DNA from: Lachnospiraceae bacterium 28-4
GTDB lineage: Bacteria > Bacillota > Clostridia > Lachnospirales > Lachnospiraceae
Assembly (NCBI GenBank): GCA_000403275.2
Contig: KE159598.1
Span: forward strand, 388,128 to 452,127
Length of the DNA stretch: 64,000 nt
Direction: 5' to 3'
Part shown: piece after piece, positions 12,766-57,087 of the stretch
How positions within the stretch are numbered: the stretch's first letter is position 1
Layout of the letters: the number at the start of each line of letters is the position of its first letter
Notes under the pieces: model-generated
What the model was told of the DNA's origin: nothing
Seen by the model: the letters and a program-made list of their open reading frames with translations, nothing else
The model's database searches: none
Position numbers and translations under genes: made by a program

Positions 12766-12771
12766 GGGATG

Positions 12772-15078: not shown

Positions 15079-15106
15079 CAACATAAAAACAATAAAAAGT
15101 ATGTTG
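15079..15106. promoter_or_regulatory. Candidate operator of the glycyl-radical-enzyme operon
   Basis: CAACATA (15079-15085) and TATGTTG (15100-15106) form an inverted repeat just upstream of the -35 box. It lies within an A-rich stretch with repeated AAAACAA. A related CAAAAACAA/TTGTTTTTG palindrome and a TATGTTG overlap the promoter of the second microcompartment operon at 28648-28676, so both may be read by one regulator, possibly the DeoR protein at 37197. Confidence 0.45.
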
Positions 15107-15112
15107 GATTAG

Positions 15113-15141
15113 TTGACTTTTAGGGAGGACACGATTATAAT
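15113..15141 (+). promoter_or_regulatory. Promoter of the first microcompartment operon
   Basis: TTGACT (15113-15118), a 17-bp spacer and TATAAT (15136-15141) form a strong promoter. Transcription would start near 15148, about 40 nt before the ATG at 15189. Confidence 0.8.
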
Positions 15142-15188
15142 AAAGAATAGCTCATCAGATGGAGAAGAGCGGTGGAAGGAGAGGTATT

Positions 15189-17726: not shown

Positions 17727-17742
17727 ACGGAAAGGAATGGGA

Positions 17743-18537: not shown

Positions 18538-18540
18538 GAA

Positions 18541-18951: not shown

Positions 18952-18996
18952 CGCAGAGGCTTGCGATGAACGGGCGGGGAGGCGCGGCGTGAGGAA

Positions 18997-40485: not shown

Positions 40486-40498
40486 GGTAAATCCCCCT

Positions 40499-41248
40499 TT
40501 ATGTGATGAGCTGGGATGTCAGATTAAAGATTCCATTCTTGATGATCCCGTCGGTATAATATTTGGAAAATGCGGGGGCTACAAGAACCTCCGTATATTC
40601 TGCAATCTGGTGCGTTTTTGTATAAGAAGTTATTTTAATATTGATAATAGGCGTATCTTCTTCCCTGTTCAGCAGTTTGGCATAGGCGCCATGTATTCTT
40701 GTGGAAGAAAAAATATGTTCGATGTTCTGGATAGAAATTCCGTTTATGGCAAACATATCGTAAAGGGAATATACCTGAAAATCGATATCCTCTATATGCT
40801 TTATGCTGTGATAGGGAATCGTCGTGTTCTCAATGGAAATAGGGAGATCATTGCCGAGACGCAGACGTATGATCTGGAACATTTCCGTGTCTTCCGCCAC
40901 ATGAAAAATATTCGAATATTTGAATTTGGCTTTTCTTGTCAGGGTGGTCAACACTCTGGAAGACGGTTTAAAACCAGCTTCATTCAATAACTCGCTCATG
41001 CCCTTAAAATGAATGGCTGTATCGTCAATATCCGTTTTGGTTACATATGTGCCTTTTCCGTGGACGCGTTTGAGCATGCTTTCTTCGATGAGCGAATCGA
41101 TGGCGGAACGTATTAGATTCCGGCTCACATTGAATTGCCGGGCGAGTTCTCTTTCGGAAGGGATCGTGGAGCCGTAAGGATATGTTTTGTTTTGGATTTT
41201 CGTTCTTATCAGGTTTGTAATTTCCGTTGTTTTTTCATCTATATCCAT
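40499..41248 (-). CDS. GntR-family regulator (UTRA type), divergent from the PTS/deglycase operon
   Basis: The protein is about 249 aa. A GntR winged helix (STIPSERELARQFNVSRNLIRSAIDSL) precedes a UTRA domain (about 80-245). The start at 41248 follows AAAGGGG; the longer frame has no site. It is transcribed away from the deglycase-PTS operon, so it is the most likely regulator of the promoter at 41453, as FrlR regulates fructoselysine genes in Bacillus. Confidence 0.87.
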   Translation of the reverse strand: MDIDEKTTEITNLIRTKIQNKTYPYGSTIPSERELARQFNVSRNLIRSAIDSLIEESMLKRVHGKGTYVTKTDIDDTAIHFKGMSELLNEAGFKPSSRVLTTLTRKAKFKYSNIFHVAEDTEMFQIIRLRLGNDLPISIENTTIPYHSIKHIEDIDFQVYSLYDMFAINGISIQNIEHIFSSTRIHGAYAKLLNREEDTPIINIKITSYTKTHQIAEYTEVLVAPAFSKYYTDGIIKNGIFNLTSQLIT

Positions 41249-41452
41249 GGAATGCCCCTTTCTGACAGATGGATTCCCACGGGAGGAAGTCAAGGCTGCC
41301 GCCTGAGCCATCGGTCACAAAATATTATAACAGAAGAGAAAAGGAAATAAAAGCATTAAAAAAGTGGTCTTGTAAAAACACGCTTGCATACCTATAATGG
41401 TTATTTAAAAACAATAAAGATATAAAATTGGTATATTAAAAATAAAAAGAGA

Positions 41453-41481
41453 TTGACAATAAAGATAGAGTGTGGTATTTT
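41453..41481 (+). promoter_or_regulatory. Promoter of the deglycase-PTS operon
   Basis: TTGACA (41453-41458), a 17-bp spacer and TATTTT (41476-41481) are seen; a TATAAT at 41481 is offset by 22 bp. An imperfect inverted repeat of TGTGGTAT and ATAATCACA overlaps the -10 region and could be the GntR operator. Confidence 0.6.
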
Positions 41482-41591
41482 ATAATCACAAGGTGGTTGA
41501 AGAATGGTACATAAAAAACTGTCTTATGCGCGCAGGACAGGAACGGAAAACGCTGATGCAAAATTTTGATTCATTTTGGGAGGAAAAGAAA

Positions 41592-42605
41592 ATGTATGGA
41601 TTTGATAACGAAACTTTTTTAAGCGTACTTCATGGAGCGGTGGACAATATTGAGACGATCGGGAAAGTGCTTGACCAGGCGGAAAAAAAGGGATACAAGA
41701 ACGTGTTTCTCATCGGTACCGGCGGTACTTATTCGATGTTAAGCCCGCTTTCCTATCTGCTGAAGACAAACAGCACCCTGGAGTGGTATTATGATATTGC
41801 GGCGGAGTTTGTGAAAGCAAAACCGAAAAAGCTGACGGAAAAGTCACTTATGATCACCGCCTCTTTATCGGGGGATACGAAGGAAACGGTTGAAGCGGCG
41901 GAATATGCGGCAAGCGTGGGCGCACAGGTCATCGCGTTTGTGGGCAGTGAGGACAGTCCGCTGGGAAGGGCGGCGACTTACCCGATTGCGAACGCGGCGT
42001 CGAACGATAATCTGGTGGAGGAGATACATATACAACTGTTCGCGCTGGGCGCTATGCTTATGAAGAGGAACGGGGATTTTGAACAGTGCGACAGATTTTT
42101 GGAGAATCTGAAGAGAATGCCGGAAGTTCTCCTGAAAGTAAGGGAACAGAACGATGAGCGGGCGCTGGCCTTTGCGGAAAAACATAAGGATACCAAGTTC
42201 CATATGTTTGTAGGAGCGGGCAATACATGGGGCGAGACTTACTGCTTTGCCATGTGCGTGCTGGAGGAAATGCAGTGGATTCCGACCAAATCGATTCACG
42301 CGGCGGAGTTTTTCCACGGAACTATCGAAATGACGGAAAAGGATATGAGCTTTGTACTGATCAAAGGGGAAGACGAAACGAGGCCCCTTGTGGACAGGGT
42401 AGAAAACTTTGTAAAGCAGCACTCGGAATATGTGGAAGTGTTTGATACAAAGGATTATGCGCTGGAAGGCATTGACGAAGATATGAGGAAATTTGTTGCG
42501 CCGATGGTGACATCTACCCAGTTAGAAAGGGTAAGCGCCCATTTCGAACATGTCAGGAACCACAGCCTGGATATCAGGAGATATTACAGGACGGTGGAAT
42601 ACTAA
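41592..42605 (+). CDS. SIS-domain sugar-amine deglycase (fructoselysine/glucoselysine-6-P deglycase type)
   Basis: The protein is about 337 aa with two SIS domains (FLIGTGGTYSML about 38-49; FVGAGNTWGETYC about 204-216). Such FrlB/GfrF-like enzymes release glucose-6-P and an amino acid from phosphorylated Amadori products. It resembles GlmS isomerase domains but has no glutaminase. The start at 41592 follows GGGAGG (41578-41583). The next four genes form a mannose-family PTS, as in gfr-type loci, which supports the assignment; the exact amine is unknown. Confidence 0.82.
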   Translation: MYGFDNETFLSVLHGAVDNIETIGKVLDQAEKKGYKNVFLIGTGGTYSMLSPLSYLLKTNSTLEWYYDIAAEFVKAKPKKLTEKSLMITASLSGDTKETVEAAEYAASVGAQVIAFVGSEDSPLGRAATYPIANAASNDNLVEEIHIQLFALGAMLMKRNGDFEQCDRFLENLKRMPEVLLKVREQNDERALAFAEKHKDTKFHMFVGAGNTWGETYCFAMCVLEEMQWIPTKSIHAAEFFHGTIEMTEKDMSFVLIKGEDETRPLVDRVENFVKQHSEYVEVFDTKDYALEGIDEDMRKFVAPMVTSTQLERVSAHFEHVRNHSLDIRRYYRTVEY

Positions 42606-42625
42606 AACAGAATGGGGGTATCGGA

Positions 42626-43078
42626 ATGAGAAGGCTGCTGGTGGCGACTCATGGGAGGTTTGCAGAAGGAATTGGGGAAACCCTGGGATTGATTCTCGGG
42701 GCTTCCCAGCCATTGGAAATATTGAATGCATATACGACGCCTGATTTCGATATGGCGAAGGCGGCAAAAGATTATGTTTCCGGTCTGGGGGAAGAGGATG
42801 AGCTGATCGTGGCTGCGGATGTATTTGGCGGAAGCGTGGCCAACGCTTTTACGGAATATACGGCAGACGGGCGCGTACATGTAGTGACGGGATTAAATCT
42901 TCCGCTGCTGATCGTATTGGTATCTATGCTAGGTTCGGAATTTTCCTCGGAAACTTCCTCGGAAATTTTCTTGGAAGAAATGATACAAAATGCCATAGAG
43001 GAGGCAAAGGAAGGCATTGTTTATGTGAATAAGGTAATAGAAGAAACGATGCAGGAAGAAGAGGAGGATGATTTCTGA
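42626..43078 (+). CDS. PTS mannose-family EIIA
   Basis: The protein is 150 aa. The phosphorylated His9 lies in LLVATHGRFAEG. Residues to about 110 form the EIIA-Man fold, and the C-terminus is acidic. It takes phosphate from HPr and passes it to EIIB, whose gene overlaps its stop codon. Confidence 0.9.
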   Translation: MRRLLVATHGRFAEGIGETLGLILGASQPLEILNAYTTPDFDMAKAAKDYVSGLGEEDELIVAADVFGGSVANAFTEYTADGRVHVVTGLNLPLLIVLVSMLGSEFSSETSSEIFLEEMIQNAIEEAKEGIVYVNKVIEETMQEEEEDDF

Positions 43079-43548
43079 TGATTAAAATGCTGAGGTTGGA
43101 TGAAAGACTGATTCATGGACAGGTTGCATTTGCATGGACCAATTCCCTTGGGGCGGACTGTATTTTTGTAATTAACGATGATGTTGCAGATAATAAACTC
43201 CGCATGACATCCCTGAAACTTGCGGCGCCGGGGGGCGTAAAGTTTGTGGCGAAGTCGGTGGATGATGCCATAGAACTTCTGAACGGAAATAAAACGGATA
43301 AATATAAATTATTTCTGATTGTGGATAATACGGCGGATGCTTTGCGGCTCGTGAAAGAAGTAAAAGACGTGAATCATGTGAACTTGGGGAATATGAAAGT
43401 AAAGGAAGGGGCACAGGCGCTGACTCCGTCCATAGCAGTGACGGAAGCGGACGTGGAAAATATCAGGGAGATGCTTGCCGCAGGAGCGGAAGTGGAGTGC
43501 AGGGCGGTGCCTACGGATAAAAAGATCATGGTGGAAACGCTGATTTAG
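43078..43548 (+). CDS. PTS mannose-family EIIB
   Basis: The protein is 156 aa. The phosphorylated His13 is in LDERLIHGQVAFAW. Start and stop codons overlap with EIIA (TGATG), indicating translational coupling. It transfers phosphate to the sugar carried by EIIC/EIID. Confidence 0.92.
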   Translation: MIKMLRLDERLIHGQVAFAWTNSLGADCIFVINDDVADNKLRMTSLKLAAPGGVKFVAKSVDDAIELLNGNKTDKYKLFLIVDNTADALRLVKEVKDVNHVNLGNMKVKEGAQALTPSIAVTEADVENIREMLAAGAEVECRAVPTDKKIMVETLI

Positions 43549-43566
43549 GGAGAGAGGAGAACGGTT

Positions 43567-44319
43567 ATGATCATTACAGCATTATTAGTAGCAGTCGTGG
43601 CCTTTCTGGCAGCTATCGACGAGCAGACATTCGGCGCGTCGATGATGTCAAGGCCGTTATTTACAGGCCCCATTGTAGGGCTGATTATGGGGGATATGAC
43701 GACGGGCGTCATTATGGGAGCTTCTCTGGAGGCGATGTTTATGGGATCTATTATGGTAGGAAGCGCTGTTCCGCCGGAAGTATACGCATCCAGCGTTTTA
43801 AGTATCGCCGTGGCGATCCAGTCGGGCGCTGAAGTGGGGACTGCGGTTGCCCTTGCCCTTCCCCTGTCCATATTCCTGCAAATGTGGAGGAACTTCTGCT
43901 ATGCCATTCCCGGAAGCTGGGCCGGAAAGCAGATTCAGAAAGCGGTAGAAGAGAGAAACATGAAAAAAGCGGATTTCCTGCATTTGACGGTAGTGCCGCT
44001 GTCCATAGGCATTCCTTCGGCTTTGCTCGTATTCGTCGCGATCGCCTTTGGTGCCGATTCCATCAATGCCATTTTGAATATGATTCCCGAAGTGGTAATG
44101 AACGGATTTAATGTCGCAGCCGGAGTTCTGTCCTGTGTAGGGTTGGCGCTGTTGATTAAAATGATGTCCAATAATAAAGTGCTGCCGTACCTTTTCCTCG
44201 GCTTTGTTGCAGTCATCTATCTGCATATGGATGTTATTGGAGTGGCGGTTGTCGGTTTCTGCATTGCAATGATTGCGGTAAATAATATGAAATTTGAAGA
44301 TGCGGAGGAGGATTTCTGA
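43567..44319 (+). CDS. PTS mannose-family EIIC (membrane)
   Basis: The protein is 250 aa with about seven hydrophobic segments. It carries the family pattern IDEQTFGASMMSRPLFTGPI near the N-terminus. With EIID it forms the membrane channel. AGAGGAG precedes the start, and the last base of its stop overlaps the EIID start. Confidence 0.9.
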   Translation: MIITALLVAVVAFLAAIDEQTFGASMMSRPLFTGPIVGLIMGDMTTGVIMGASLEAMFMGSIMVGSAVPPEVYASSVLSIAVAIQSGAEVGTAVALALPLSIFLQMWRNFCYAIPGSWAGKQIQKAVEERNMKKADFLHLTVVPLSIGIPSALLVFVAIAFGADSINAILNMIPEVVMNGFNVAAGVLSCVGLALLIKMMSNNKVLPYLFLGFVAVIYLHMDVIGVAVVGFCIAMIAVNNMKFEDAEEDF

Positions 44320-45164
44320 TGATGGAAAATAAGATACAGACGGCGGATAAAGAGAAAAGGGCGGAAGAGATTATGACCGCGAAAGAGTACAGGAGCATAT
44401 TCTGGAGATCTTTTACGATACAGTCCTCCTGGTCTTTCGATAAGATGATGGCATACGGATATATGTATGCGCTGGAAAAACCGCTAAGAAAAATTTACCC
44501 CGATGATGATGATTTTTATGCCGCATTGAAACGCCATACGGAGACATTTAACATCACTCCCCACGTATCCCCTTTTATTATGACGCTGGGCGTGGCGATG
44601 GAGGAGGAGAATGCAAAAGAAGAGAACTTCGATACGGATTCCATCAATAACGTGAAGGTTGGGCTGATGGGGCCGCTTTCAGGAATCGGCGATTCCTTCT
44701 TCTGGGGAACCTTCCGCGTGATTGCCGCCGGCATCGGCATCGGGCTGGCACAGCAGGGAAATATATTGGGGGCTGTCATTTATTTCCTGCTTTATACTTC
44801 CATACATTTTATTACGAAGATTATAGCGGGCAAATATGGATATAAGCTGGGCACTTCTTTCCTGGAAAATGCGTCCGAGAATCATATGATGGAAAAACTG
44901 TCCTATGGCGCTTCCATCCTCGGCATGACCGTAATCGGCGCGATGATCGCCACGATGGTTTCCTTGCAGACCACTTTGAGTTTTACACTGTCTGGCACGG
45001 AAACGACGCTCCAGTCGATTTTTGACCAGATTTTCCCCGGACTGCTGCCGCTGGCAGCTACCTTCCTCTGCGTATGGCTTTATAAGAAAAATGTGAAAAC
45101 CATTTACATTATCCTTGGTATTTTTGCTTTATGCATTTTGGGGTGCGCCGTTGGGATTCTCTAA
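44319..45164 (+). CDS. PTS mannose-family EIID (membrane)
   Basis: The protein is 281 aa. A cytosolic N-terminal region (SSWSFDKMMAYGYMYAL, TPHVSPFIMTLGVAMEEENA) is followed by membrane helices, with the pattern GLMGPLSGIGDSFFWGT. It partners with EIIC. A second ATG at 44322 is an alternative start. The HAD gene begins inside its last codons. Confidence 0.92.
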   Translation: MMENKIQTADKEKRAEEIMTAKEYRSIFWRSFTIQSSWSFDKMMAYGYMYALEKPLRKIYPDDDDFYAALKRHTETFNITPHVSPFIMTLGVAMEEENAKEENFDTDSINNVKVGLMGPLSGIGDSFFWGTFRVIAAGIGIGLAQQGNILGAVIYFLLYTSIHFITKIIAGKYGYKLGTSFLENASENHMMEKLSYGASILGMTVIGAMIATMVSLQTTLSFTLSGTETTLQSIFDQIFPGLLPLAATFLCVWLYKKNVKTIYIILGIFALCILGCAVGIL

Positions 45165-45792
45165 GAAACTGGTCATATTCGATGTGGACGGAACGTTGAA
45201 TATGACGGAGATATATGCGGTGCCGGCATATAAAAAGGTTTTGCGCGAAATGGGGGCGAATGGTTTTACGGATGAAATGCTGCGGGACAGGATTGGGGCC
45301 GTGTTCGAGGATGATATCCGGTATTTCTTTGGCAGCCGGGCGGAAGAAAAGAAAGAAGAGTTTGAAAGGCTGATCGGGGAATATTGGATGAAGGATGTGG
45401 AGCGGAAGGCAAAAACCTTTCCCCATACGGAAGAAACCTTGCGCGAGTTAAAAGAAAAAGGATATTCTCTCGCCGTTTGCTCCAACGCGGAAAACAAGGA
45501 AATCGATCTGGTACTGCGCGCATTGCATATCAAGGATTATTTCAGCTATATACAGGGAATTACGGAGGAAGGAACCAAATCCCACAGCCTCCGCCGGCTG
45601 CTTGAAAAAACAGAGCCGGAATGGGCGGTTATGGTGGGTGACAGGTTTTATGACAAAGAGGCGGCAAGAGATAACGGGATTCCGTTCATTGCCTGTCTGT
45701 ACGGATATGGGAAGAAAGGGGAATTTTCGGAAATGGATTTATCCATAACGGAGATTTGCCGACTGCCGTCTATGATGGAAAGAATAAAATAA
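45151..45792 (+). CDS. HAD-superfamily phosphatase
   Basis: The protein is about 213 aa from TTG 45151, overlapping the EIID gene; GGGGTG lies 7 bp upstream. Motifs are IFDVDGTLN (nucleophile Asp), VCSNAEN and VMVGDRFYDKEAA. It resembles phosphoglycolate-phosphatase-like HADs. Overlap with the PTS operon suggests it removes phosphate from a sugar-phosphate intermediate, or relieves sugar-phosphate stress. The exact substrate is unknown. Confidence 0.8.
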   Translation: MGFSKKLVIFDVDGTLNMTEIYAVPAYKKVLREMGANGFTDEMLRDRIGAVFEDDIRYFFGSRAEEKKEEFERLIGEYWMKDVERKAKTFPHTEETLRELKEKGYSLAVCSNAENKEIDLVLRALHIKDYFSYIQGITEEGTKSHSLRRLLEKTEPEWAVMVGDRFYDKEAARDNGIPFIACLYGYGKKGEFSEMDLSITEICRLPSMMERIK

Positions 45793-45817
45793 AGATACGA
45801 ATTGCGGAAATCGATTT

Positions 45818-45869
45818 TTGCAAACGGAAGTTTTCTTATTTATAGGAAAATCCGTTTGCAATTTTTTTT
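45818..45869 (+). terminator. Terminator of the deglycase-PTS operon
   Basis: TTGCAAACGGA (45818-45828) pairs with TCCGTTTGCAA (45851-45861), extended by inner GTTTTC/GAAAA pairs, followed by eight T. Confidence 0.88.
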
Positions 45870-46031
45870 CCATAAATTACCACTATAAGAAAGAAACAAT
45901 ACTTCCAGTTTATTCCTTATTGAAATGTTTTGTAGTAAGTTAGTAAAAGCGGTAAGGAAAACAAAAGGAAAGGATTTGTCTGTTTTGTTGCTGCCGTGTG
46001 GTGTGGGGGAGTCTGTTTATGGGGGACACAT

Positions 46032-46364
46032 ATGGATAAAGCATGTTATGACGCTATCGGGAGACGGATTCGCTATGTAAGGCACGGTAAGAAGCTGACA
46101 CAGGAACAGGTTGCGGAACGGGCTGGAATTTCGGCGAATTATTTAAGCAGGATAGAAAACGGTACGGCAAAATTCAGCCTGGAGGTATTGATTCAACTGA
46201 TTAACGCGCTGGATATCAGCGCAGATTATCTTCTTTTGGATGTAATTAAAAAGAAGGAAGGGAAAGGCATAGACGTTCAAAATTACGACAGACTGCCGGA
46301 AGCGCAGATTGAATTTATTAATCAGTTCATTGGTTTGGCCAGACAATATCATATTTTAAAATGA
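46032..46364 (+). CDS. XRE-family helix-turn-helix regulator of the polyketide operon
   Basis: The protein is 110 aa. Residues about 8-65 form the XRE domain (IRYVRHGKKLTQEQVAERAGISANYLSRIENG). The start at 46032 follows GGGGGA. The stop codon overlaps the carboxyltransferase start (ATGA), so the two are coupled. A regulator at the head of a biosynthetic operon probably controls it. Confidence 0.87.
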   Translation: MDKACYDAIGRRIRYVRHGKKLTQEQVAERAGISANYLSRIENGTAKFSLEVLIQLINALDISADYLLLDVIKKKEGKGIDVQNYDRLPEAQIEFINQFIGLARQYHILK

Positions 46365-47833
46365 AGAAAACAGATTCGTATGAAAAACAGCATAGAAAAG
46401 AAAAGCTGCTTATAGAAGAAAAAATTGGGCTTTTGTTTGATCAAGAGAGTTTTCGGACGCTGGAGGGAGGAAAAGAAGAGAAAGCAGGAAGCGTTGTGAC
46501 GGGCTATGGAACCATTGAGGGACGGAGAGTATATATGTATGCCCATAATTCTGCCGTGAAAGGGGGAACCGTGGGGCTACAGGAAGGAAAGCGGATACGG
46601 AAATTAATCGAAGAAGCCATGAGGCAGAGAAGACCGGTGGTAGGGATACAGGATTCAGGGGGCGCGCGGATACAGGAGGGCATCGCGGCCCTTGCCGGAT
46701 ATGGAGAAGTGTTAAAGGCCCATGCGGCGGCGGCCGGAGTGATACCTCAGGTTATGGTAGTAGCGGGCACCTGTGCAGGAGGGGCGGCATATTCGCCCGG
46801 ACTGGCTGATTTTACTTTTATAGTGGAAGAGACCGGATATATGTTTGTGACAGGGCCGGATGTAGTGGAAAAAAGCTGCGGGCAGAAATGTACATGGGAA
46901 GAGACAGGAGGCGCCGGGCTCCATGGGAAATTGTCAGGAGCGGCACATTTTTGCAGCAAAAATGAAAAGGAATGCTTTGTCCGGTTAAAAAGGCTTCTTA
47001 TTTACCTGTCGGATGGGATGGATGAAAAGAGGCGGCGGAAAATAGTTCGGAGACGGGATGGGGATCATATCCTGCCGGGCATGAGGGAGATCGTTCCGGC
47101 CAACGGGAGAAAGGGCTATGATGTATGCGCGGTAATCGGACGGATCGTGGACAGAGGTAGTTTCTTGGAGGTAAGAAAGGATTTTGCAGAAAGCATTGTT
47201 ACCGGTTTTGGAAGAATGGGAGGGCGGATGACGGGCATCGTGGCAAATCAGCCGATGAGGACGGCAGGGGCGATCGATTGCAGCGCGGCCGTAAAAGGGG
47301 CGGCATTTGTCAGGTTCTGCAACGCCTATCATATTCCGGTGATTACATTTATGGATACGCCGGGATTCCTCCCGGGAGCCGGGCAGGAGCAGGAGGGTAT
47401 GGTACGCCATGGCGCAAAGTTATTGTTTGCATACGCGGAGGCGGATACGGTCAAGCTGACGGTGATCTTAAGGAAGGCTTATGGCGGCGCATATATATGC
47501 ATGGGCAGCAAGGCATTGGGAATGGATGCCGTATATGCCTGGCCGGGGGCGGAGATCGCAGTGATGGGAGCAGAGTGCGCCATACCCATACTTCATAAAA
47601 GAAAGCTGGCAGGGATGGACGAAGAAGAAAAGCAGGAATTTATAAAGGAACGGACGGAAGAATACCGGGAGAATTTGAAAGCGGATGTGGAAAATGCCGT
47701 GCGCTATGGATACATAGACGGCTGGCTGGAGCCGGATCATACAAGAGAGCAGTTGATCAGGGATTTGGAATATTACGGGAAGAGAAGGAAAACAGGGAAA
47801 AGAAAAAGGAAATACGGGCTGGTGCCGCTTTGA
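46361..47833 (+). CDS. Acyl-CoA carboxylase carboxyltransferase subunit
   Basis: The protein is 490 aa, with both crotonase-like halves of biotin-dependent carboxyltransferase beta subunits (about 40-235 and 250-480). Motifs include VVGIQDSGGARIQEGI, CAGGAAYSPGLADF and DTPGFLPGAGQEQEG. It should transfer CO2 from carboxybiotin to acetyl- or propionyl-CoA. No biotin carboxylase or biotin carrier gene is nearby. It is directly upstream of the polyketide synthase, so it likely supplies malonyl- or methylmalonyl-CoA extender units. The role is inferred from context. Confidence 0.87.
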   Translation: MKKTDSYEKQHRKEKLLIEEKIGLLFDQESFRTLEGGKEEKAGSVVTGYGTIEGRRVYMYAHNSAVKGGTVGLQEGKRIRKLIEEAMRQRRPVVGIQDSGGARIQEGIAALAGYGEVLKAHAAAAGVIPQVMVVAGTCAGGAAYSPGLADFTFIVEETGYMFVTGPDVVEKSCGQKCTWEETGGAGLHGKLSGAAHFCSKNEKECFVRLKRLLIYLSDGMDEKRRRKIVRRRDGDHILPGMREIVPANGRKGYDVCAVIGRIVDRGSFLEVRKDFAESIVTGFGRMGGRMTGIVANQPMRTAGAIDCSAAVKGAAFVRFCNAYHIPVITFMDTPGFLPGAGQEQEGMVRHGAKLLFAYAEADTVKLTVILRKAYGGAYICMGSKALGMDAVYAWPGAEIAVMGAECAIPILHKRKLAGMDEEEKQEFIKERTEEYRENLKADVENAVRYGYIDGWLEPDHTREQLIRDLEYYGKRRKTGKRKRKYGLVPL

Positions 47834-47842
47834 AGAAAAAGG

Positions 47843-50800
47843 ATGGAAAAGGGAATGGACGAGAAGAGAGTTGCAGTAATCGGAATGGGATGCAGATATG
47901 CGGGCGCTAAAAATCCTGAGGGATTGTGGCGGCTTTTAAAAAACGGGGAAGGGGAAAGCATGCCGATGAGCTTCCGATTCCCGCAGTTTCAGGAATACTA
48001 TCATTCCGATCACCGGGCGGCAGGAAAATTTTATAATGACAGGGCATTTTTCCTGAAGGAAGACCTTTCGGCTTTCGACGCGGACTTTTTTCGGATTTCT
48101 TATAAAGAGGCGAAACGGATGGACTATCAGCAAAGACTGCTGCTGCAAGTATCCTATGAAGCGCTGACGGACGCCGGAATGGAAATCAAAGGGAGCGGCA
48201 CAGGGGTGTTTATCGGAGCTTTTATGCAGGATTTTCTGACGAATACGATGCAAAAGGAAAATTACGAGAAACTGGGCGGGCACCACGCGACCGGTTCCAG
48301 CATCGGCATGCTGGCGGCGAGGCTGTCATATTTTTATGATATCCATGGCCCCAGCATGACAGTGGATACCGCCTGTTCCTCTTCCCTGACCGCGCTGCAT
48401 CTGGCGGTGGAGAGCATTCGCAGAGGCGATTGCGGGGCGGCGCTTTGCGGCGGAGTCAATATCATGACGGAAATAGGGAATTTTATTACATTGAGCAAAG
48501 GCGGATTTTTATCCCGCCAGGGCGTGTCGTCCGCTTTTGGAAAAGAAGCGGACGGCTATGCCAGGGGGGAAGGGGCCGGTGTGCTCGTTCTGAAGGAATT
48601 GGGACAGGCTCTGCGGGATCAGGATCGAATTTACTGTGAGATTATAAAGACGGCGGTCAATCATGACGGCAGCAAGAAAGGGGTCAGCTATCCGAACGGA
48701 GACGCACAACAAAAGCTGCTTTGCCAAATATACGGAGGAAACGGAGTTCCCATAGACGATATCGGTTATCTGGAAGCCCACGGAACGGGAACCAGGGCCG
48801 GGGACAGAACGGAAACGGAAGCTTTGGAGAGGGTATTCCGGGACAGGAAAAAAATACTGCCCATCGGTTCTTTGAAAAGCAATATAGGGCATACGGAGGC
48901 GGCGGCAGGGATTGCGTCCGTCATAAAGGCAATCCTGATTTTACAGCATGGGGAAATCCCGCCTACGCTCCATTGCGAAGAGAAAAATCCGAGCATTCCT
49001 TTTGCGGATTACAGAATCAGGCCGGTGGAGAAAACGGAAGGAATATGGCCGGCAAAGGATGGGAGGATATATGTTGGAATTAACAGTTTCGGCTTTGGAG
49101 GCGCTAACGCCCATGCATATATCGGCAGTTTGGCGGAAAGCGGGGAACAGGAGGGAAACAGCGGGAAAACGGCGGAAAGCAAGGACATTTTATTCCTTTC
49201 CGCAAACAGTATGCTATCTTTGCGGAATATGGCGGGCGATTATAAATATGCCATACAGGCCGGCGGATTGAAAAAAGAGGATTTGGGAGAGATATGCAGG
49301 TGTGCAAAATGGCGGAGGCCTCATCATTTGCCCTTTCGGCTGGCGGTATATGCGCCGGACCGCATGAGGCTGGCCAATGGGCTGACGGAGTTTGAAAACG
49401 GAAAAATGGGAAGCGGATGGTTATGCAGACAAAGAAATAAAGATTATAAAAAACAAGCGGCGGTTTTTTCCGGCATGGGGAACCAGACGGAGAGCATGGG
49501 CAAGGATTTGTACCGCAATTTCACCGTATTCAGGGAACAGTTTTGCCGATGCGGCAGAGAATATGAAAAATATTCCGACAGAAGCTTGAAAAAGGTAATG
49601 GAAAGCGGGACGGCGCCGGATTATTTTTACAGGGTCAGCTTTTTGCAGTCCTATCATTTGGCATATCAAATATCCCTGTTTGCCCTTCTGGTATCCGAAG
49701 GGGTGGAGTTCTGCGGATGTGTGGGACACAGCGCGGGGGAATTGGCGGCGTTTTATTGCAGCGGTTTGTTGACATTGGAGGAAACTTTCCGCATTGCATG
49801 GCATAGGGGAAAATGCCAGGAAAAGCTGCAGGGAAAGGGAAAAATGCTGGCGGTGAGGATGAGCCGGAAAGAAGCGGATTTTCTCTGCGAAAAAAGCGGG
49901 GGGCTGGTTTCCCTCGGGGTGGAAAACGGAGAGAACCGGATGGTGTTGTCCGGCGATTTAGCGGAGTTGGAAGAGATAGAAAAGCGCCGGGGCGGCAAAT
50001 TTTTGAAAGGTTCCATGGCATATCACAGTTGGCAGATGGACGAAGTGGAGGAAGAATTCCGGCGGTCGGTACGGGAACCGGAAAGAGGGGCGGCTGCGCA
50101 TGAAGCCGGAGCCGGGGGAAAAACGGCAGCAGGGATTGCAGCGGGAATGGCTTTGTATTCCACCGTATACGGAGACCGTATGGAAGAGAACGCATATGAG
50201 GTTTCCTACTGGTGGAACAATATAAGGAATACGGTGGAATTTGCAAAGGCTTTAAAGGCTATGAAAAGGGATGGATTCGATTCCTTTATGGAAATAGGGG
50301 TAACTCCTGTGTTAATGCCTTCCATTGCGGAGGAATTTTATGACAGGGATTTTAGCTGTATTGCGGTTCAGCCGGAAAAAGAGACGGGAACGGAAACGGA
50401 AATCTTCTGCCGGGCGATGATGCAGGTCTATGTAAACCGTGTACCCGCAAACTTCCGGGCAGGAGGAAATAAATGCGGAAATCTTTCCCTTCCGGGCTAT
50501 CGATGGGATAAGAAAAAGCTTCCTGTGGAAATGCCGGATCAGGAATGGGAAAAACCGGACCCCTTTCTTGGAAGGAAGGAGGGACTCCCTCTGGATATAT
50601 GGAAAAACAGGATAAACCTGGCGAGCCATGACTGGCTGAAAGGGCATAAAGCGGAGGGGGAATGTTACCTGCCGGGAGTATTCTATGCGGCGATGCTTGA
50701 CAGAGCGGGAATAAGGGAATGGAAGAATATGGAAATCCTCCGTCCGGTGATCCTGCATCCCTTCCGGGATACCGTATTAAGTTTTGTTCCTTATCCGTCC

Positions 50801-52864
50801 GGGAAGGCAGAAGTATCTGTTTTTTCGGCGGCGGAAGGGAAGTGGATGCCGGTCATGAGGGCAGAGGCAAGCGAAGGGGAGAAATGGAAAACGGACGACA
50901 GGAGTCCAAAAAACGAGAAAAAGGAATGGCTGGAAATAAGCGGAGACGCGGCTTATGAAATACTGCAAAGAAAGTCGCTGCATTATAGAGGAAGCTTCCG
51001 CAGGATAGAGAAAGCCTGGATCGGGGAGAATGAAATTTTCTGTCAGTTGACGGCGGAAAACGGCCGCTTAAAAAAAGAGGCGCTTGCAGGAACTTTGGAT
51101 GCCATGCTGCAGGCGGCGGCATTGGCGGGCAGCCGTGATATTGCATTTGACAGGAAATATATGATGCTGCCGGTGGGGATGGAAAAGGCGAGGCTGTCCT
51201 ATAGGGAGGAAAAGGAATATGCAGGGCTTTATGTCCACGCAGCGATATGGGAAAGGGAAGAGCCGGTCTGGAAAGCGGATTGCAGACTTTATGACGAAAG
51301 CGGCAGTCTGTTGGCGGAATTTCACCAGGTATCTTTTGAAAAAAAAGAAAAGGCAGAGACGGAGGAAATCAATACCTATAGGTTTCAGTGGGAAGAGATA
51401 AAAAGAAAAGAAGAAAGTAAAGGCAAGGCAACGGTTTTTCTTGCGGGACAGGATATAGAAACAGATATATTCCGTTTGTTGGCGCTGATCAGGAATTATC
51501 GGAGAAAGGAACGCCGCATGGTTATCGTAACAGAAAATGCAGTGAAGGTTTTGCCCGGGGACGAAGTGAAGGGCTACCGACAGGCAGGACTCTGGGGGCT
51601 GGTGCGGTGTATTCGGGCAGAAAGGCCGGATCTGGAAATATGTTTGCTCGATATGGATGAGAGGGGAAGGATAGGCGATAACGGAAAATATTTTTCGGAC
51701 GGACAGGATTTTTCCTATGTACCGGAAGGGGAATGGGAGGCGGCATATAGAAATGGTACGCTTTATGGGCTTCGGGCGGTACCGGTCAAAGAGAGAAAGG
51801 ACGGCAGGGAAAGGCATATGCAGGGAATCACGGCGGTTCTGACGGGAGCTTCCGGGGGTTTGGCATTTCCCTATGCGTTATGGATGGCCGCTGCGGGGGC
51901 GGAAAGGATCGCGCTTGTTTCCAGGCAAAGGTCGAAAAGACTGGAGATTTTATTGGAAGCGCTGGATTATTATAGATTGCAGGGAAAATACATAAGGGCC
52001 GATGTGACGGACAGGAAACAGATAGAAAGAGGCTTGGAACAGCTGGAGGAGGAAGGATGGTTCGAAGGAAAGGAAAAAATATTCTGCCATTTGGCCGGTT
52101 ATAGTGAAGACTGTCCTTATGAGGAGATTACGCCTTCTATTCTAAAGAAGCATTTGGAACCCAAAATGAAAGGGGCGGAAAATTTATCCGGGCTGGCGCA
52201 GCGATGGGAAAGCCAGCTTGTTCTCATCGGTTCCATAACCGCCGTGCTGGGGAATCCGGGGCAGGGATGTTATGGGGCGGCAAACAGCATGCTTCAGTCC
52301 TTTGCGGAATATGGAGGATATCGGCTGGAGGGCTTTGGCGCGTTGGATACCGGGATGGCCGTCAGGGAAAAAAGAGTCAGCCATGCGTTGCAGATGCAGG
52401 GTATCGGAATTATGGAAAGTTACAATGCAGTCCGGTGCAGGAAAGAATGCGGGGCGGAGATAGGGTATACGGCAAAGCTGGACTGGCGGAAAGTAATGGA
52501 CTATCGGAATATGCAAAAGGACAATAAATTCCAATTCGTCAGGGCGGAAGAGGAATCCGGGGATATTTTGGGAGAAACATACGGAGAGGGGAATAGGGAG
52601 GAGAAAGAAAAGATTCTGCAAAAGCTGCTGCAAACTATTTTTGCCGAAGTGCTTGGAATGGAGGAAGACGAAGTATCTTTGGACAGGAACACGGATACCA
52701 TGGGCATCGATTCTTTGAGCGCTGCTTTTATCGCCGGAAAAATCAGGCAGAAGACGGGCAGCAGCATGACGCCGGCCATGGCGGCAGGGGCGTTTACTCT
52801 CAGGGATATGGCCATGGGCATCGTCCAGGAGAGGGAAAGCGCAGAATCCGGGGAACGGTCATAG
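47843..52864 (+). CDS. Single-module type I polyketide synthase (KS-AT-DH-KR-ACP)
   Basis: The protein is 1673 aa; ATG 47855 is an alternative start. KS (about 5-430): Cys178 in DTACSSSL, His313 in HGTGT, His350 in KSNIGHTE. AT (about 540-850): Ser630 in GHSAGE, His728 in AYHSW. DH (about 910-1150): His935 in HKAEGECYLPG (HxxxGxxxxP) and Asp1086 in DAMLQ. KR (about 1340-1540): TGASGGLA, Ser1464 and Tyr1477. ACP (about 1590-1660): Ser1624 in GIDSL. All five domains keep their catalytic residues. There is no enoyl reductase, thioesterase or phosphopantetheinyl transferase nearby. A lone reducing module implies iterative use, perhaps giving a polyene or unsaturated acyl chain; the product and release step are unknown. 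Such synthases are unusual in gut Clostridia. Confidence 0.93.
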   Translation: MEKGMDEKRVAVIGMGCRYAGAKNPEGLWRLLKNGEGESMPMSFRFPQFQEYYHSDHRAAGKFYNDRAFFLKEDLSAFDADFFRISYKEAKRMDYQQRLLLQVSYEALTDAGMEIKGSGTGVFIGAFMQDFLTNTMQKENYEKLGGHHATGSSIGMLAARLSYFYDIHGPSMTVDTACSSSLTALHLAVESIRRGDCGAALCGGVNIMTEIGNFITLSKGGFLSRQGVSSAFGKEADGYARGEGAGVLVLKELGQALRDQDRIYCEIIKTAVNHDGSKKGVSYPNGDAQQKLLCQIYGGNGVPIDDIGYLEAHGTGTRAGDRTETEALERVFRDRKKILPIGSLKSNIGHTEAAAGIASVIKAILILQHGEIPPTLHCEEKNPSIPFADYRIRPVEKTEGIWPAKDGRIYVGINSFGFGGANAHAYIGSLAESGEQEGNSGKTAESKDILFLSANSMLSLRNMAGDYKYAIQAGGLKKEDLGEICRCAKWRRPHHLPFRLAVYAPDRMRLANGLTEFENGKMGSGWLCRQRNKDYKKQAAVFSGMGNQTESMGKDLYRNFTVFREQFCRCGREYEKYSDRSLKKVMESGTAPDYFYRVSFLQSYHLAYQISLFALLVSEGVEFCGCVGHSAGELAAFYCSGLLTLEETFRIAWHRGKCQEKLQGKGKMLAVRMSRKEADFLCEKSGGLVSLGVENGENRMVLSGDLAELEEIEKRRGGKFLKGSMAYHSWQMDEVEEEFRRSVREPERGAAAHEAGAGGKTAAGIAAGMALYSTVYGDRMEENAYEVSYWWNNIRNTVEFAKALKAMKRDGFDSFMEIGVTPVLMPSIAEEFYDRDFSCIAVQPEKETGTETEIFCRAMMQVYVNRVPANFRAGGNKCGNLSLPGYRWDKKKLPVEMPDQEWEKPDPFLGRKEGLPLDIWKNRINLASHDWLKGHKAEGECYLPGVFYAAMLDRAGIREWKNMEILRPVILHPFRDTVLSFVPYPSGKAEVSVFSAAEGKWMPVMRAEASEGEKWKTDDRSPKNEKKEWLEISGDAAYEILQRKSLHYRGSFRRIEKAWIGENEIFCQLTAENGRLKKEALAGTLDAMLQAAALAGSRDIAFDRKYMMLPVGMEKARLSYREEKEYAGLYVHAAIWEREEPVWKADCRLYDESGSLLAEFHQVSFEKKEKAETEEINTYRFQWEEIKRKEESKGKATVFLAGQDIETDIFRLLALIRNYRRKERRMVIVTENAVKVLPGDEVKGYRQAGLWGLVRCIRAERPDLEICLLDMDERGRIGDNGKYFSDGQDFSYVPEGEWEAAYRNGTLYGLRAVPVKERKDGRERHMQGITAVLTGASGGLAFPYALWMAAAGAERIALVSRQRSKRLEILLEALDYYRLQGKYIRADVTDRKQIERGLEQLEEEGWFEGKEKIFCHLAGYSEDCPYEEITPSILKKHLEPKMKGAENLSGLAQRWESQLVLIGSITAVLGNPGQGCYGAANSMLQSFAEYGGYRLEGFGALDTGMAVREKRVSHALQMQGIGIMESYNAVRCRKECGAEIGYTAKLDWRKVMDYRNMQKDNKFQFVRAEEESGDILGETYGEGNREEKEKILQKLLQTIFAEVLGMEEDEVSLDRNTDTMGIDSLSAAFIAGKIRQKTGSSMTPAMAAGAFTLRDMAMGIVQERESAESGERS

Positions 52865-53038
52865 CTGCAATTTATCCATGTGCGGTCTGACAGGCTGGCC
52901 TATAGGAAGGAAAGGCTGTTGGAGGGATTATGTAACAGGCGCCGGTTTCATAAGACAGGACAGGGATAAAATGTGCGTGATAAATAGAAGAAACAAATCT
53001 TTAAAGAAGACTTGTAAAAGAAAAAAGGAGGAATTGGA

Positions 53039-54541
53039 ATGGACGAAGAAACCAGGATGGAAGAAGTGGCGGCAATCAAGGGGATGCCAGTTAGGCGGAA
53101 TATGCATATTAAGCTGAAACAAGCGGTTCCAAGCGGTTATCCGACGGAAAAAATGAAAAGCCAGTTAGCAGCCGTAGGGCTGAATTGCGAAGAAACGTCG
53201 GAAGAAAGGCTGAAGCAATATAAGGAAGAGGTACTCAGGGATTTTCCGGAGGGAAACAGGCAGACTTTTTATATTGCCAAGGGAACGCCGAAAAGGAGCC
53301 AGGTTTATTCCTGCATGGCAGGGACTGACGGGAAAAAGATGAATGATGTCAGTTATTTGAAAGCTCTTGGCATTGAGGAAGTGGAAGTGAACGGAAGCTG
53401 GGTGATCGATGATGACGCCGGCGGCTACCGCAGAGATTTGTGCTATATTTCATACGCGCCTCATTTTGACTATTTAAGAGACAATTTTCCAGGTATTTTC
53501 CCGGGTTCCTATGCGGGGGAAAAGAAAGTAATCAATGAGCCTACAGGGGCGGCTATCCGCGATTCTTTCAAGACAATAGCCATGACGGTATGCACGACGA
53601 TAAAAAGCGGGATTCAGAAGGCGGATTTGGAATCGGTTGTTTCCACGATCTTAGGTGATAATACATCCGAGAACCCGAAAGATTATGTACAGGACGATGT
53701 GCTTTATACTTATTTGGTAAACGGCTATGATCCGGAAACAGAGACGGCGGTTTCCGTAGGGGTTCTGGCTGTGAAATATTCTATTCAGATTAAAGATTAC
53801 AAGGATAAGTCGGATCACAAGGACGGGCGCTATAACGATGCCGTCATACAGGCGGAGGCAAGGTTTGTTTCCTACAGCAAAGAGGAAGACATTAAGAGGG
53901 ATATAGAAAACCTGGCAGGTTTTCAGAATCGGATCATGGATATGGAAGCGCCGCAGGATATGGATGCAGAAGAGGAAATGCTGGAAGCAATACCGATTGT
54001 GAAGAAAAAAGTCACCGTACATACCAATCAGCCGCCGGCAAATGAGGAAACCTTTAAAACCGGCATGCCTTTGGCGGGGGTTGGAGACTATGCGGACACG
54101 ATGATTTTCTTCTGCCCGGATTTTGAAAATGTGGGTTATATCGATAATTTGGAATCGAGCGTCAAAACGACCTATAGCAGAAGCGTCACCGTTGGATTTG
54201 AAAATACGGCGGGAATAAGCATATCCGCAGAGATTTCAATGGAAATGGATTTTGTCGTTGCAAAATATGGAGTGAAGATGGGCGTCAGCATGTCGCTGAC
54301 AAGCGCATGGAACCAAAGTCAGACAGAGACTTTGACCTTTGAAGTAGGGCCCGGGGAAGAGGCGTATTTATATCAGGGCAAGCTGAGAAGCATCATATTA
54401 AGATACAATCCGGCTAACAATATGTTTGAATATATAAACAGCTCATTGAATTCCTTCCATTCCGATGCCGTGAAAACGACAAGAGAACCGATCGTGGATC
54501 CGAAGACAAAAGCAATATGGCAGGAGATGAAAAAAGAATAA
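53039..54541 (+). CDS. Possible aerolysin-like beta-pore-forming protein
   Basis: The protein is 500 aa without a signal peptide. The N-terminal 300 residues are mixed alpha/beta and not recognised. Residues about 360-470 show alternating hydrophobic/Ser/Thr strands (SRSVTVGFENTAGISISAEI, then MSLTSAWNQSQTETLTFEV) like the membrane-insertion region of aerolysin/ETX-MTX2 proteins. AAGGAGG precedes the start. It lies 174 bp after the polyketide synthase, same strand, with no clear terminator between. The pore-former call rests on pattern only; an unrelated beta-rich protein is possible. Confidence 0.55.
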   Translation: MDEETRMEEVAAIKGMPVRRNMHIKLKQAVPSGYPTEKMKSQLAAVGLNCEETSEERLKQYKEEVLRDFPEGNRQTFYIAKGTPKRSQVYSCMAGTDGKKMNDVSYLKALGIEEVEVNGSWVIDDDAGGYRRDLCYISYAPHFDYLRDNFPGIFPGSYAGEKKVINEPTGAAIRDSFKTIAMTVCTTIKSGIQKADLESVVSTILGDNTSENPKDYVQDDVLYTYLVNGYDPETETAVSVGVLAVKYSIQIKDYKDKSDHKDGRYNDAVIQAEARFVSYSKEEDIKRDIENLAGFQNRIMDMEAPQDMDAEEEMLEAIPIVKKKVTVHTNQPPANEETFKTGMPLAGVGDYADTMIFFCPDFENVGYIDNLESSVKTTYSRSVTVGFENTAGISISAEISMEMDFVVAKYGVKMGVSMSLTSAWNQSQTETLTFEVGPGEEAYLYQGKLRSIILRYNPANNMFEYINSSLNSFHSDAVKTTREPIVDPKTKAIWQEMKKE

Positions 54542-54586
54542 GAAAATACCGTTGATTATCTTTCTGATAGTTTAGCACTAAACGGC

Positions 54587-54631
54587 ATGGATACAAAATA
54601 GTTTACAACTTGCAGACTATTTTGTATCCAT
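54587..54631. repeat. Perfect 16-bp hairpin over the 3' end of the DUF1016 gene
   Basis: ATGGATACAAAATAGT (54587-54602) pairs with ACTATTTTGTATCCAT (54616-54631). The DUF1016 stop codon (54617-54619) lies within one arm. A second perfect palindrome, GTTTAG-CA-CTAAAC, is at 54570-54583. It may act as a terminator for the minus-strand gene or mark an insertion boundary. Confidence 0.6.
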
Positions 54632-55708
54632 CATTTTTGCGACTTCAGACTCCAGCGTTTCTATTGTAGGAAGACTATGTTGATATTCTTTGCTGAGCGC
54701 ATTGCTTAATTCATACCCTGTAATACCAATCGGCTGTGAAACTTCTTCCAAAGAATATTCCGCCACAACATTATCCTTATCCTTGCAAATAATCAGACCT
54801 ATTGCCGGATTATCGCCATTTCCTGTTAATTGCTTATTTACTGCTGTAACGTAAAAATTTAATTTTCCAACATACTCCGGTTCAAATCTCTTTGTTTTAA
54901 GTTCTACAACAACATAACAATGAAGTTTTATGTGATAAAACAGCAAATCAATATAAAATTCACGCTCCCCAACCTGTAAATGAACCTGACGTCCCACATA
55001 GGAAAAACCTGTTCCCAACTCTAACAAGAACTGTGTAATCTGATTTACCAGAGCATTTTCCAATTCTTTTTCATCATAATCATCCCGCATTGATAAAAAA
55101 TCAAAACTATATGGATCTTTTAACGTTTGTATTGCCAAATCTGAAGCTTTAGTAGGAAGTTTATCCTTAAAATTCGTAATGGCTCTTCCCTTACGTTCAT
55201 ATAATCCGCTTTCAATCTGATGTTCCAATACATCTCGACTCCAATTATTTTCCAAAGTATACTGTGCATAAAAAACAGCTTCACGTACATCTTTACATTT
55301 AAAAATGATACGCTGATTATGTCCCCACGGAATTGTTGTTATCAGCCGGAAAATATCATCACACCTCAATTCGTCTACAACTTGTTGACCATTTACAGCT
55401 TCTGCATAAAAGCGATACCATAACCGCATCGTTTTCAAATTCGTTTCTGAAAATCCCGCCATATCAGGAAAGGTGTTTTTTAAGTCAATACTCATTTGCC
55501 GCAAAAGACCTTCTCCCCACTTTGAATGTTTCTGCCGATTTACTATATCCTCGCCAATATGCCAATACAGTTCTAATAGTTCTCTATTGACTTTAATAGA
55601 TGCTTTAATCTGACTGTTCTTAATCCTGTCTTTAATCAAAGCAATCCATTCTCTATATTCATCAGTCACGATAAATTTTACCTCTTGCTTTTTGATGCCA
55701 GTTTTCAT
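54617..55708 (-). CDS. DUF1016/YhcG-type PD-(D/E)XK nuclease-like protein
   Basis: The protein is about 363 aa. The N-terminal DUF1016 region (VNRELLELYWHIGEDIV, KTMRLWYRFY) is followed by a C-terminal PDDEXK nuclease domain with FYIDLLFYH and VVELKTKRFEPEYVGKLNFY. Members are associated with mobile elements and restriction systems; activity here is unproven. The start at 55708 follows GGAGG. Its AT-rich composition contrasts with the flanking operons, suggesting acquisition. No methylase is adjacent. Confidence 0.85.
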   Translation of the reverse strand: MKTGIKKQEVKFIVTDEYREWIALIKDRIKNSQIKASIKVNRELLELYWHIGEDIVNRQKHSKWGEGLLRQMSIDLKNTFPDMAGFSETNLKTMRLWYRFYAEAVNGQQVVDELRCDDIFRLITTIPWGHNQRIIFKCKDVREAVFYAQYTLENNWSRDVLEHQIESGLYERKGRAITNFKDKLPTKASDLAIQTLKDPYSFDFLSMRDDYDEKELENALVNQITQFLLELGTGFSYVGRQVHLQVGEREFYIDLLFYHIKLHCYVVVELKTKRFEPEYVGKLNFYVTAVNKQLTGNGDNPAIGLIICKDKDNVVAEYSLEEVSQPIGITGYELSNALSKEYQHSLPTIETLESEVAKMMDTK

Positions 55709-56136
55709 TTTTTCCTCCATAGCATGCATCAATTCGTCATAAAATCATTCATTGTTGCATAAAATTTTCTATTTTTTTAAATCCATAATATTTTAACTCA
55801 CTTTTAAATTTCGATTTATTGTTTTATATTGGGGAAAATTATACCATACTCAATTACAAAAAACAATTTCCGTTCTAACGGCAAAACCGTTTGCACTATT
55901 TCGGCGGTTGGTGGTAGGTTTTGCGCCCTTTCTTCCGGCTCCGTTTCCCACCGCCCTGTTCCGCTTCCCCAGCCCCGTTTGGCTTCCTCCGCCATGGCGT
56001 TTATAAAAATTGATTTCTGCGTTCGTGAGTCATTTATTATTGAAATATGAGTTATCTTGTGATAGTATGAAATGGCGTAGATATTGTGAGGATAAATAGG
56101 ATATATTGAGATGCAGAAGGAAATAGGTACAATGCG
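55709..56136. other. Intergenic region with a C-rich tract and inverted repeat
   Basis: No convincing gene is seen in this 428-bp stretch. GCAAAACC (55881-55888) and GGTTTTGC (55917-55924) form an inverted repeat. A pyrimidine-rich tract (about 55925-55995) resembles the one at 180-338. Short frames on both strands translate to low-complexity sequence and lack ribosome binding sites. Confidence 0.5.
56040..56068 (+). promoter_or_regulatory. Possible promoter of the regulator-M60 protein operon
   Basis: TTGAAA (56040-56045) and TAGTAT (56063-56068) are 17 bp apart, 70 bp before the regulator gene. The -10 is weak. Confidence 0.45.
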
Positions 56137-57087
56137 ATGGATGGAGATATTATTCGGAAAATTGATTTGAAAAAAGAAAATGAAGATAATGTGAGTCATC
56201 TATCTTTGACAGATGAGTCAGAGGCATTGATCCGCCGGTTTTTAACAAAGCAGATGGCCCGGATCATGCTGCTATTGGTGGATCATACGATGACCAATAA
56301 GGAAATTGCGGAAAAAATGGATCTGACATCCAGCGCGCTCAGCAATATTCTGCAAAGAATGAAGCGGTGCGAGGTGGAACTGCTGGAGATATATAAAAAG
56401 GAAAAATATGTGATATATTCCCTGACGCCGGCGGCACGTGCATATGCGGAAAAGAACCTGGTGCTGAAGGGGAAGGGCAGTGTAAGGCTGATAAAGGTCA
56501 ACGAAACGGACACTCTCGAATGGCAAAATTGCAGGAATGCTCTGGAAAAGCTGAAAGAAAGGCTGGGAGAGGATTGGGATGTGGAGTTTCCGCACTGCTG
56601 CTTCCTGCATTATGAGAATGGAGGAAAGAATGAGATCCCGGAAGCGCGCAGTTTCTTTGAAACGGCGGAAGAACTCATTATCAGAGAGCAGAATGGGCAG
56701 TGGAAAAGGATATTGGATGACTTGGAAAATGAGGTGTGCAGAAAATCCTACCTACGGTATGCGGATAAATTTATTTTTATCAGAAAGCTATGTTTTTTGG
56801 ATGCAGAAAACTGGAAAATGGCATACCGGCTGATAGATGATGTTTTTTGCGGGGAAGAGGTACGCATCAGCTATGATTTTCTGGCAGACAGCGGGGATCT
56901 GAGCAAGGAAGAGATCGTCGGGATGGTAAAGGCTTTGGCGGACATCAGGAAACAATCGCAGGAAAGGGATTTGTCGGGGAAAGAATTTCTCAATGAATGG
57001 GAGAGGTATTTTATGCCTCATGAAAAGCTGGTTTATTTTATTGCTGAAAAGTATGCTTTTACGAAAGGAAAGGGAGAAAGAATATGA
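56137..57087 (+). CDS. Winged-helix regulator (MarR/ArsR-like) coupled to the surface protein
   Basis: The protein is 316 aa. Residues about 30-105 contain a winged helix (MTNKEIAEKMDLTSSALSNI). The rest (about 120-316) is a helical domain I do not recognise, perhaps a ligand sensor. Its stop overlaps the start of the next gene (ATGA at 57084), so regulator and surface protein are made together. The start site at 56137 has only a weak purine-rich signal upstream. Confidence 0.72.
   Translation: MDGDIIRKIDLKKENEDNVSHLSLTDESEALIRRFLTKQMARIMLLLVDHTMTNKEIAEKMDLTSSALSNILQRMKRCEVELLEIYKKEKYVIYSLTPAARAYAEKNLVLKGKGSVRLIKVNETDTLEWQNCRNALEKLKERLGEDWDVEFPHCCFLHYENGGKNEIPEARSFFETAEELIIREQNGQWKRILDDLENEVCRKSYLRYADKFIFIRKLCFLDAENWKMAYRLIDDVFCGEEVRISYDFLADSGDLSKEEIVGMVKALADIRKQSQERDLSGKEFLNEWERYFMPHEKLVYFIAEKYAFTKGKGERI

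Follow-up and report, generated by a model that had tools for sequence, protein, structure and literature searches.

A carboxyltransferase-polyketide synthase operon

The window (the whole stretch of 64,000 nucleotides analysed, positions 388,128 to 452,127 of contig KE159598.1, assembly GCA_000403275.2) comes from the genome of Lachnospiraceae bacterium 28-4 (G000; 98.4% complete, 7 contigs). It harbored a tight unit of three genes on the + strand, coding in turn for an XRE regulator, an acyl-CoA carboxyltransferase (CT) and a polyketide synthase (PKS). The regulator, an XRE/Cro-type helix-turn-helix protein of 110 amino acids (46032..46364, HTH_3 at 3.5e-16 in Pfam), overlapped the CT gene by 4 bp, and 9 bp separated the CT gene from the PKS gene. 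A longer regulator frame is listed, opening at GTG 45996 with ATG 46032 in the same frame; the 110-amino-acid product was used for the Pfam scan. The CT (46361..47833, 490 amino acids) displayed a Carboxyl_trans domain over residues 9-483 (PF01039, 4.9e-135) and was assigned to the PccB/MmdA type. The PKS (47843..52864, 1673 amino acids) is a single-module reducing type I enzyme according to its Pfam domains and an alignment with relatives. The original prediction of an XRE-carboxyltransferase-PKS operon with intact catalytic residues was borne out by open reading frames (ORFs), Pfam domains, spacing and conserved residues alike.

Pfam domains of the PKS were ordered ketosynthase-acyltransferase-dehydratase-ketoreductase-acyl carrier protein (KS-AT-DH-KR-ACP), all on the + strand and placed by Pfam and alignment. 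The KS (residues about 8-428, 47864..49126) matched ketoacyl-synt (2e-76) and Ketoacyl-synt_C (8.3e-38), and the AT (residues 541-844, 49463..50374), carrying the motifs GHSAGE and AYHS, matched Acyl_transf_1 (1.8e-37). The KR (residues 1331-1490, 51833..52312; KR, 3.5e-27) was preceded by a Rossmann-like stretch, and the ACP (residues 1595-1657, 52625..52813; PP-binding, 5e-09) bore S1624 within GIDSL. The DH (residues about 915-1172, 50585..51358) was divergent (PS-DH, 2.7e-12), yet it kept H935 and D1086; its best solved match was CurJ (3.9e-07), over the second half of the domain. Residues invariant in an alignment with four relatives were C178, H313 and H350 of the KS, S630 and H728 of the AT, H935, D1086 and Q1090 of the DH, K1441, S1464, Y1477 and N1481 of the KR and S1624 of the ACP, whose catalytic roles we presume from known motifs.

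Neither a thioesterase nor a separate enoyl reductase was among the 13 Pfam families listed in the PKS scan, as had been predicted for the neighborhood; an adh_short_C2 match, described as enoyl reductase, coincided with the KR. Docking-like tails were not seen by eye. The lack of an enoyl reductase and of such tails, together with the intact DH residues, makes the iterative use and unsaturated product proposed earlier plausible for this enzyme. The prediction also held in that no phosphopantetheinyl transferase lies near the operon, the only one detected in the genome (247 amino acids) being encoded elsewhere. A PKS-specific role for this transferase was considered and dropped, since all 20 genomes scanned had at least one and the 28-4 genome keeps an 81-amino-acid PP-binding ORF. 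PP-binding matches numbered three genome-wide: the PKS ACP, this 81-amino-acid ORF, which by eye has plsX on one side and rnc on the other, and one further match.

The PKS is rare and divergent. Its best solved relatives were type I PKSs, both modular and iterative. Matches at E <= 7.1e-61 were found in 10 of 397 genomes of the family, G000 included (the others at 29-37% identity), and at E <= 1e-90 in 6 of 391 genomes of the class, again with G000. Among the 16 genomes of the genus, G776 was the only other one to exceed fatty-acid-synthesis-like matches to the PKS query. Top-scoring KS matches among the fetched loci were about 45-47% identical. A contig scan with the PKS sequence alone gave no confirmed relative; in an alignment-based scan, the best 80 of 591 confirmed loci comprised one from Bacillota by title and others from different or unstated phyla, with best-segment identities of at most 39%. 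All 250 plasmid records retrieved at E <= 1e-80 were below 60% identity.

The same layout is known from Clostridium acetobutylicum, in which CA_C3355, a stand-alone KS-AT-DH-KR-ACP synthase, condenses malonyl-CoA iteratively in vitro in the making of clostrienoic acid and clostrienose, according to the parts of the source consulted (PMC5686105). There, no biosynthetic enzyme is reported up- or downstream of CA_C3355, further enzymes lie elsewhere in the genome, and clostrienose was called in 2017 the second example of a polyketide from a strict anaerobe (PMC5686105). Like CA_C3355, the window PKS is a single-module, stand-alone enzyme, with no thioesterase or partner PKS beside it; the likeness is one of domain architecture as described. 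Judged from its sequence, the window PKS is thus built like synthases of the CA_C3355 kind and is by itself no new kind, which revises the earlier remark that the pattern was unfamiliar. Since CA_C3355 has this layout and its further enzymes elsewhere, the missing thioesterase of the window PKS is no anomaly. The adjacent carboxyltransferase, in contrast, has no counterpart beside CA_C3355.

Carboxyltransferases without a detectable biotin carboxylase

Malonyl-CoA is usually made by a biotin carboxylase acting with a carboxyltransferase. The biotin carboxylase family PF02785 had no match in G000 or its 15 genus-mates (0/16); four of these 16 genomes are assembled in 1-7 contigs. The same search was positive in 13 of 14 control genomes, in the family genomes G084 and G101, and in 247 of the 397 family genomes overall. 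With a KS match used as a proxy for fatty-acid synthesis, a proxy which includes PKSs, 311 family genomes had a match at E <= 1e-15; PF02785 was present in 235 of these and missing from 76, G000 being one of the latter through its PKS. PF02785 was absent from 21 of 25 genomes with a weaker KS match and from 53 of 61 without any. Most KS-bearing genomes of the family therefore have a biotin carboxylase. Because none was found in G000, in which the CT domain is present, the window CT probably does not belong to an ordinary ATP-dependent acetyl-CoA carboxylase.

Apart from the PKS itself, the PKS query gave no FabF-, FabD- or FabG-like match in G000 (FabH was not searched for), and only two CT matches were found in this genome, none of them AccD-like. 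G000 therefore displayed no other detected source of malonyl-CoA, malonate routes not having been searched for, and it seems, from gene content, to have lost type II fatty-acid synthesis. Its genus-mates differed: 13 of the 15 gave FabF- and FabD-like matches, and several gave FabG-like ones; the query matched nothing in G315 and G778, the latter 65% complete. Ten of the 13 FabF-bearing mates encoded a further CT of 544-571 amino acids, and two had an AccD-like ORF near FabF, while FabF-bearing G788 (81% complete) had neither. In the three genomes that gave no FabF match, neither a CT of this size nor an AccD-like ORF was found. In the five surroundings read (L158, L159, L160, L165, L168), the 544-571-amino-acid CT stood alone, and no acc genes were seen by eye in the fatty-acid operon of G777 (L144). 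The genus thus seems to make malonyl-CoA through CTs without a detectable biotin carboxylase, an arrangement that the window operon may repeat for a PKS. A link between the losses of biotin carboxylase and of fatty-acid synthesis was considered and discarded, as the 13 FabF-bearing mates also lack the former.

Other settings of CTs and AccD-like proteins were observed within the genus. The fatty-acid operon of L167 (G784:C59:1-15000) contained at 8720-10387 an AccD-like ORF of 555 amino acids, accB and accC not being seen nearby by eye. At L161 (G779:C95:33001-53000, 8821-19002), a lone CT of 494 amino acids accompanied two small ACP-like, two ketoacyl-ACP synthase III-like, two short-chain dehydrogenase/reductase-like and one flippase-like ORF (by eye); an orphan CT may there serve another biosynthetic pathway. 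CTs of 507-530 amino acids that adjoined CitE-like ORFs by eye (L162 and L164, from G780 and G779) formed a separate group in the CT tree.

The candidate source of the carboxyl group is a cluster that G000 encoded about 190 kb from the operon, typed by Pfam and NCBIfam as CT-OadG-BCCP-OadB-OadA (L051; BCCP, biotin carboxyl carrier protein). Its OadA passed NF008985 (744 against 718 bits) and its BCCP carried EAMKM; OadA proteins also matched the 5S model NF008984, below cut-off. All 16 genus genomes had the MmdA-type CT, OadG and BCCP together, and 15 had OadA as well, the contig ending first in the sixteenth. OadB was not found in the cluster stretches fetched from G776, G777 and G781 (L169, L170, L174), where BCCP adjoined OadA and OadG stayed; OadB was not searched for elsewhere in these three genomes. 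Their clusters are unlikely to act as sodium pumps.

These parts recall two known systems. The Propionibacterium-type methylmalonyl-CoA carboxytransferase consists of a 12S CT, a 5S subunit and a 1.3S BCCP; G000 has the same kinds of parts (CT, OadA-like protein, BCCP), likewise without a biotin carboxylase, and the window CT matched the 12S chain 1on3 at 2.5e-116. In contrast to that enzyme, the parts in G000 come from two places, the PKS operon and the remote cluster, and the expected acceptor would be acetyl-CoA, not propionyl-CoA. Na+-translocating oxaloacetate and methylmalonyl-CoA decarboxylases have the same CT-OadG-BCCP-OadB-OadA parts as the G000 cluster, for which an additional role as carboxyl donor for synthesis is proposed here. 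In the parts consulted of a paper on Na+-pump decarboxylases, no mention of a transcarboxylase was found (PMC8473912).

Proposed transcarboxylation to malonyl-CoA and competing explanations

The operon may thus encode an iterative PKS fed with malonyl-CoA by transcarboxylation through a dedicated CT, a reading to which we give an even balance of probability. Loading of biotin from oxaloacetate through OadA and BCCP is proposed because no biotin carboxylase was found in G000. OadA and BCCP of the remote cluster would move a carboxyl group from oxaloacetate to biotin, and the operon CT would hand it to acetyl-CoA, the sum being oxaloacetate + acetyl-CoA -> pyruvate + malonyl-CoA, with no ATP spent. 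The PKS would be activated by the single phosphopantetheinyl transferase detected, and would condense malonyl units repeatedly into a small polyunsaturated acyl product, whose release would be spontaneous or need an enzyme from another locus. A CT serving as an extender-supply subunit, as originally suggested, would fit the gene content of G000.

The clearest support for a transcarboxylase came from the genus-mate G776 (L155, L156). At one end of a run of nonribosomal peptide synthetase (NRPS)/PKS genes, this genome encoded a CT, an OadA/5S-like protein (NF006761, 614 bits against a cut-off of 402), a BCCP with ESMKM and a phosphopantetheinyl transferase, consecutively and on the same strand; these genes would presumably serve one product. 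The G776 CT was 43% identical to the window CT and lay about 15 kb from the KS-bearing ORF. In contrast to the window operon, which has only the CT, the G776 run includes a hybrid NRPS-PKS protein without AT, beside which a FabD-like ORF was seen by eye.

Of the 11 PKS-bearing family genomes from which PKS stretches were fetched, five had carboxylase genes near the PKS (G000, G084, G101, G251 with a fused AccDA, and G776); such genes were absent from the stretches of G054, G087 (second PKS not fetched), G166, G278, G314 and G345. Among 80 named loci, five had a CT of at least 41% identity in the flanks covered. Coupling of a PKS to carboxylase genes is therefore not unique; what sets the window apart is a lone CT in a genome where no biotin carboxylase was found.

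Several observations weigh against transcarboxylation. The operon itself contains no OadA or BCCP gene, so that their partnership with the CT is inferred. OadG, which is membrane-linked, was kept in 16 of 16 clusters, including the three without OadB, which are thus not bare transcarboxylase sets and are probably not wholly soluble. Linkage of a CT to the PKS is no rule, as four (G054, G166, G278, G314) of the six PKS-bearing genomes lacking PF02785 had no CT in the fetched stretches, the other two being G000 and G776. A first CT tree, which had placed the window CT with the CTs of G776 and G779 (93/88), was dropped, two of its rows being wrong-frame ORFs; in the corrected tree, the window CT stood on a long branch with no clear placement, and kinship to the PKS-linked CT of G776 was not supported. 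The evidence for the absences comes from profile and protein searches, made on one 98.4%-complete assembly plus its genus-mates, that did not extend to routes from malonate to malonyl-CoA. The PKSs of G084 and G101 sit beside a full accBCDA including biotin carboxylase; they share with the window a private extender supply next to the PKS, but theirs is ATP-dependent.

The latter arrangement also favors an explanation in which the CT serves as beta subunit in a standard ATP-dependent acyl-CoA carboxylase, together with a biotin carboxylase that lies outside the assembly or is too divergent to be detected, as does the finding that the closest solved relatives of the CT are acyl-CoA carboxylase beta subunits. 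The lack of any PF02785 match across the genus, including the four assemblies of 1-7 contigs, set against the frequent recovery in controls and in the family, makes this explanation improbable.

About as improbable is another extender and hence a branched product, as would arise if, for instance, the CT turned propionyl-CoA into methylmalonyl-CoA. The CT does fall in the PccB/MmdA group, and CTs of this kind can be promiscuous, according to the parts consulted of PMC7835884. The same source indicates for site 422 of PccB that Ile permits acetyl-CoA and Asp favors propionyl-CoA, context mattering (PMC7835884). Residue 422 of Streptomyces coelicolor PccB aligns with an Ile of the window CT, which agrees with acetyl-CoA as acceptor and speaks against this other extender; the other readable CTs compared had Ile, Val, Leu or Ala there, so that Ile is weak evidence. 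The AT motif GHSAGE differed from the GHSQGE of the aligned DEBS and tylactone ATs, and we read GHSAGE with AYHS, following a general motif rule, as malonyl-like.

A PKS that elongates once and passes its chain to partners encoded elsewhere appears slightly less probable still. It would agree with the G084 locus, where the relative of the PKS is followed by an open frame of 3433 amino acids with several PP-binding matches. In G000, the scarcity of PP-binding matches, the lack of docking-like tails and the absence of any other PKS or NRPS ORF in the listed stretch 40000-58000 argue against such partners. A CT running in reverse, or carried as a metabolic passenger that decarboxylates acyl-CoA into biotin apart from extender supply, is very improbable given its tight operon with the PKS and the missing Fab- and AccD-like matches in G000, despite a best NCBIfam model for methylmalonyl-CoA decarboxylase alpha (mmdA, TIGR01117), which the CT matched below cut-off (498.5 against 998.8 bits).

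Transcarboxylation as a source of malonyl-CoA has been proposed before. In the parts of the sources consulted, the malonyl-CoA source of some acetogens is given as an 'unknown pathway' (PMC8671834), and a metabolic model of Clostridium thermocellum, which lacks the standard acetyl-CoA carboxylase, recruits a putative transcarboxylase (PMC5414155). Its wiring to a polyketide operon was not found in the literature searched: no transcarboxylase feeding a PKS appeared among the titles and abstract openings covered. More broadly, and more tentatively than for the operon itself, this group of anaerobes may make malonyl-CoA from oxaloacetate without ATP for both fatty acids and polyketides, with orphan CTs for each sharing one BCCP-OadA core, and the present organism having kept the polyketide branch only. 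This bears on how malonyl-CoA is made in anaerobes without acetyl-CoA carboxylase, as 13 of the 16 genus genomes were FabF-bearing and yet had no biotin carboxylase found. Concrete candidate genes are available in the window operon and the G776 run, which opens the question to testing with a small set of purified proteins. The operon would also offer a candidate polyketide from an apparent anaerobe, this habit being inferred.

Genes and signals around the operon

No Rfam match was found within 44000-54000, and promoter-like sites (6, against 8.7 in shuffles) and terminator-like sites (8, against 7.0) showed no real excess. The plasmid search returned no near-identical DNA to the window between 40000 and 62950. 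Upstream of the operon, a mannose-family phosphotransferase system was recognized by eye at 42626-45164 (+), with IIA-, IIB-, IIC- and IID-like ORFs following a sugar isomerase-like ORF. Downstream, a 500-amino-acid protein (53039-54541, +) started 175 bp past the PKS; with a lectin_4 match below cut-off (2.5e-44) and a weak monalysin-type beta-barrel match, it is lectin-like and possibly pore-forming. Further on, a surface-protein-like ORF of 1955 amino acids (57084-62951, +) displayed Gly/Thr-rich repeats and, by eye, a metallopeptidase motif HEIGHN.

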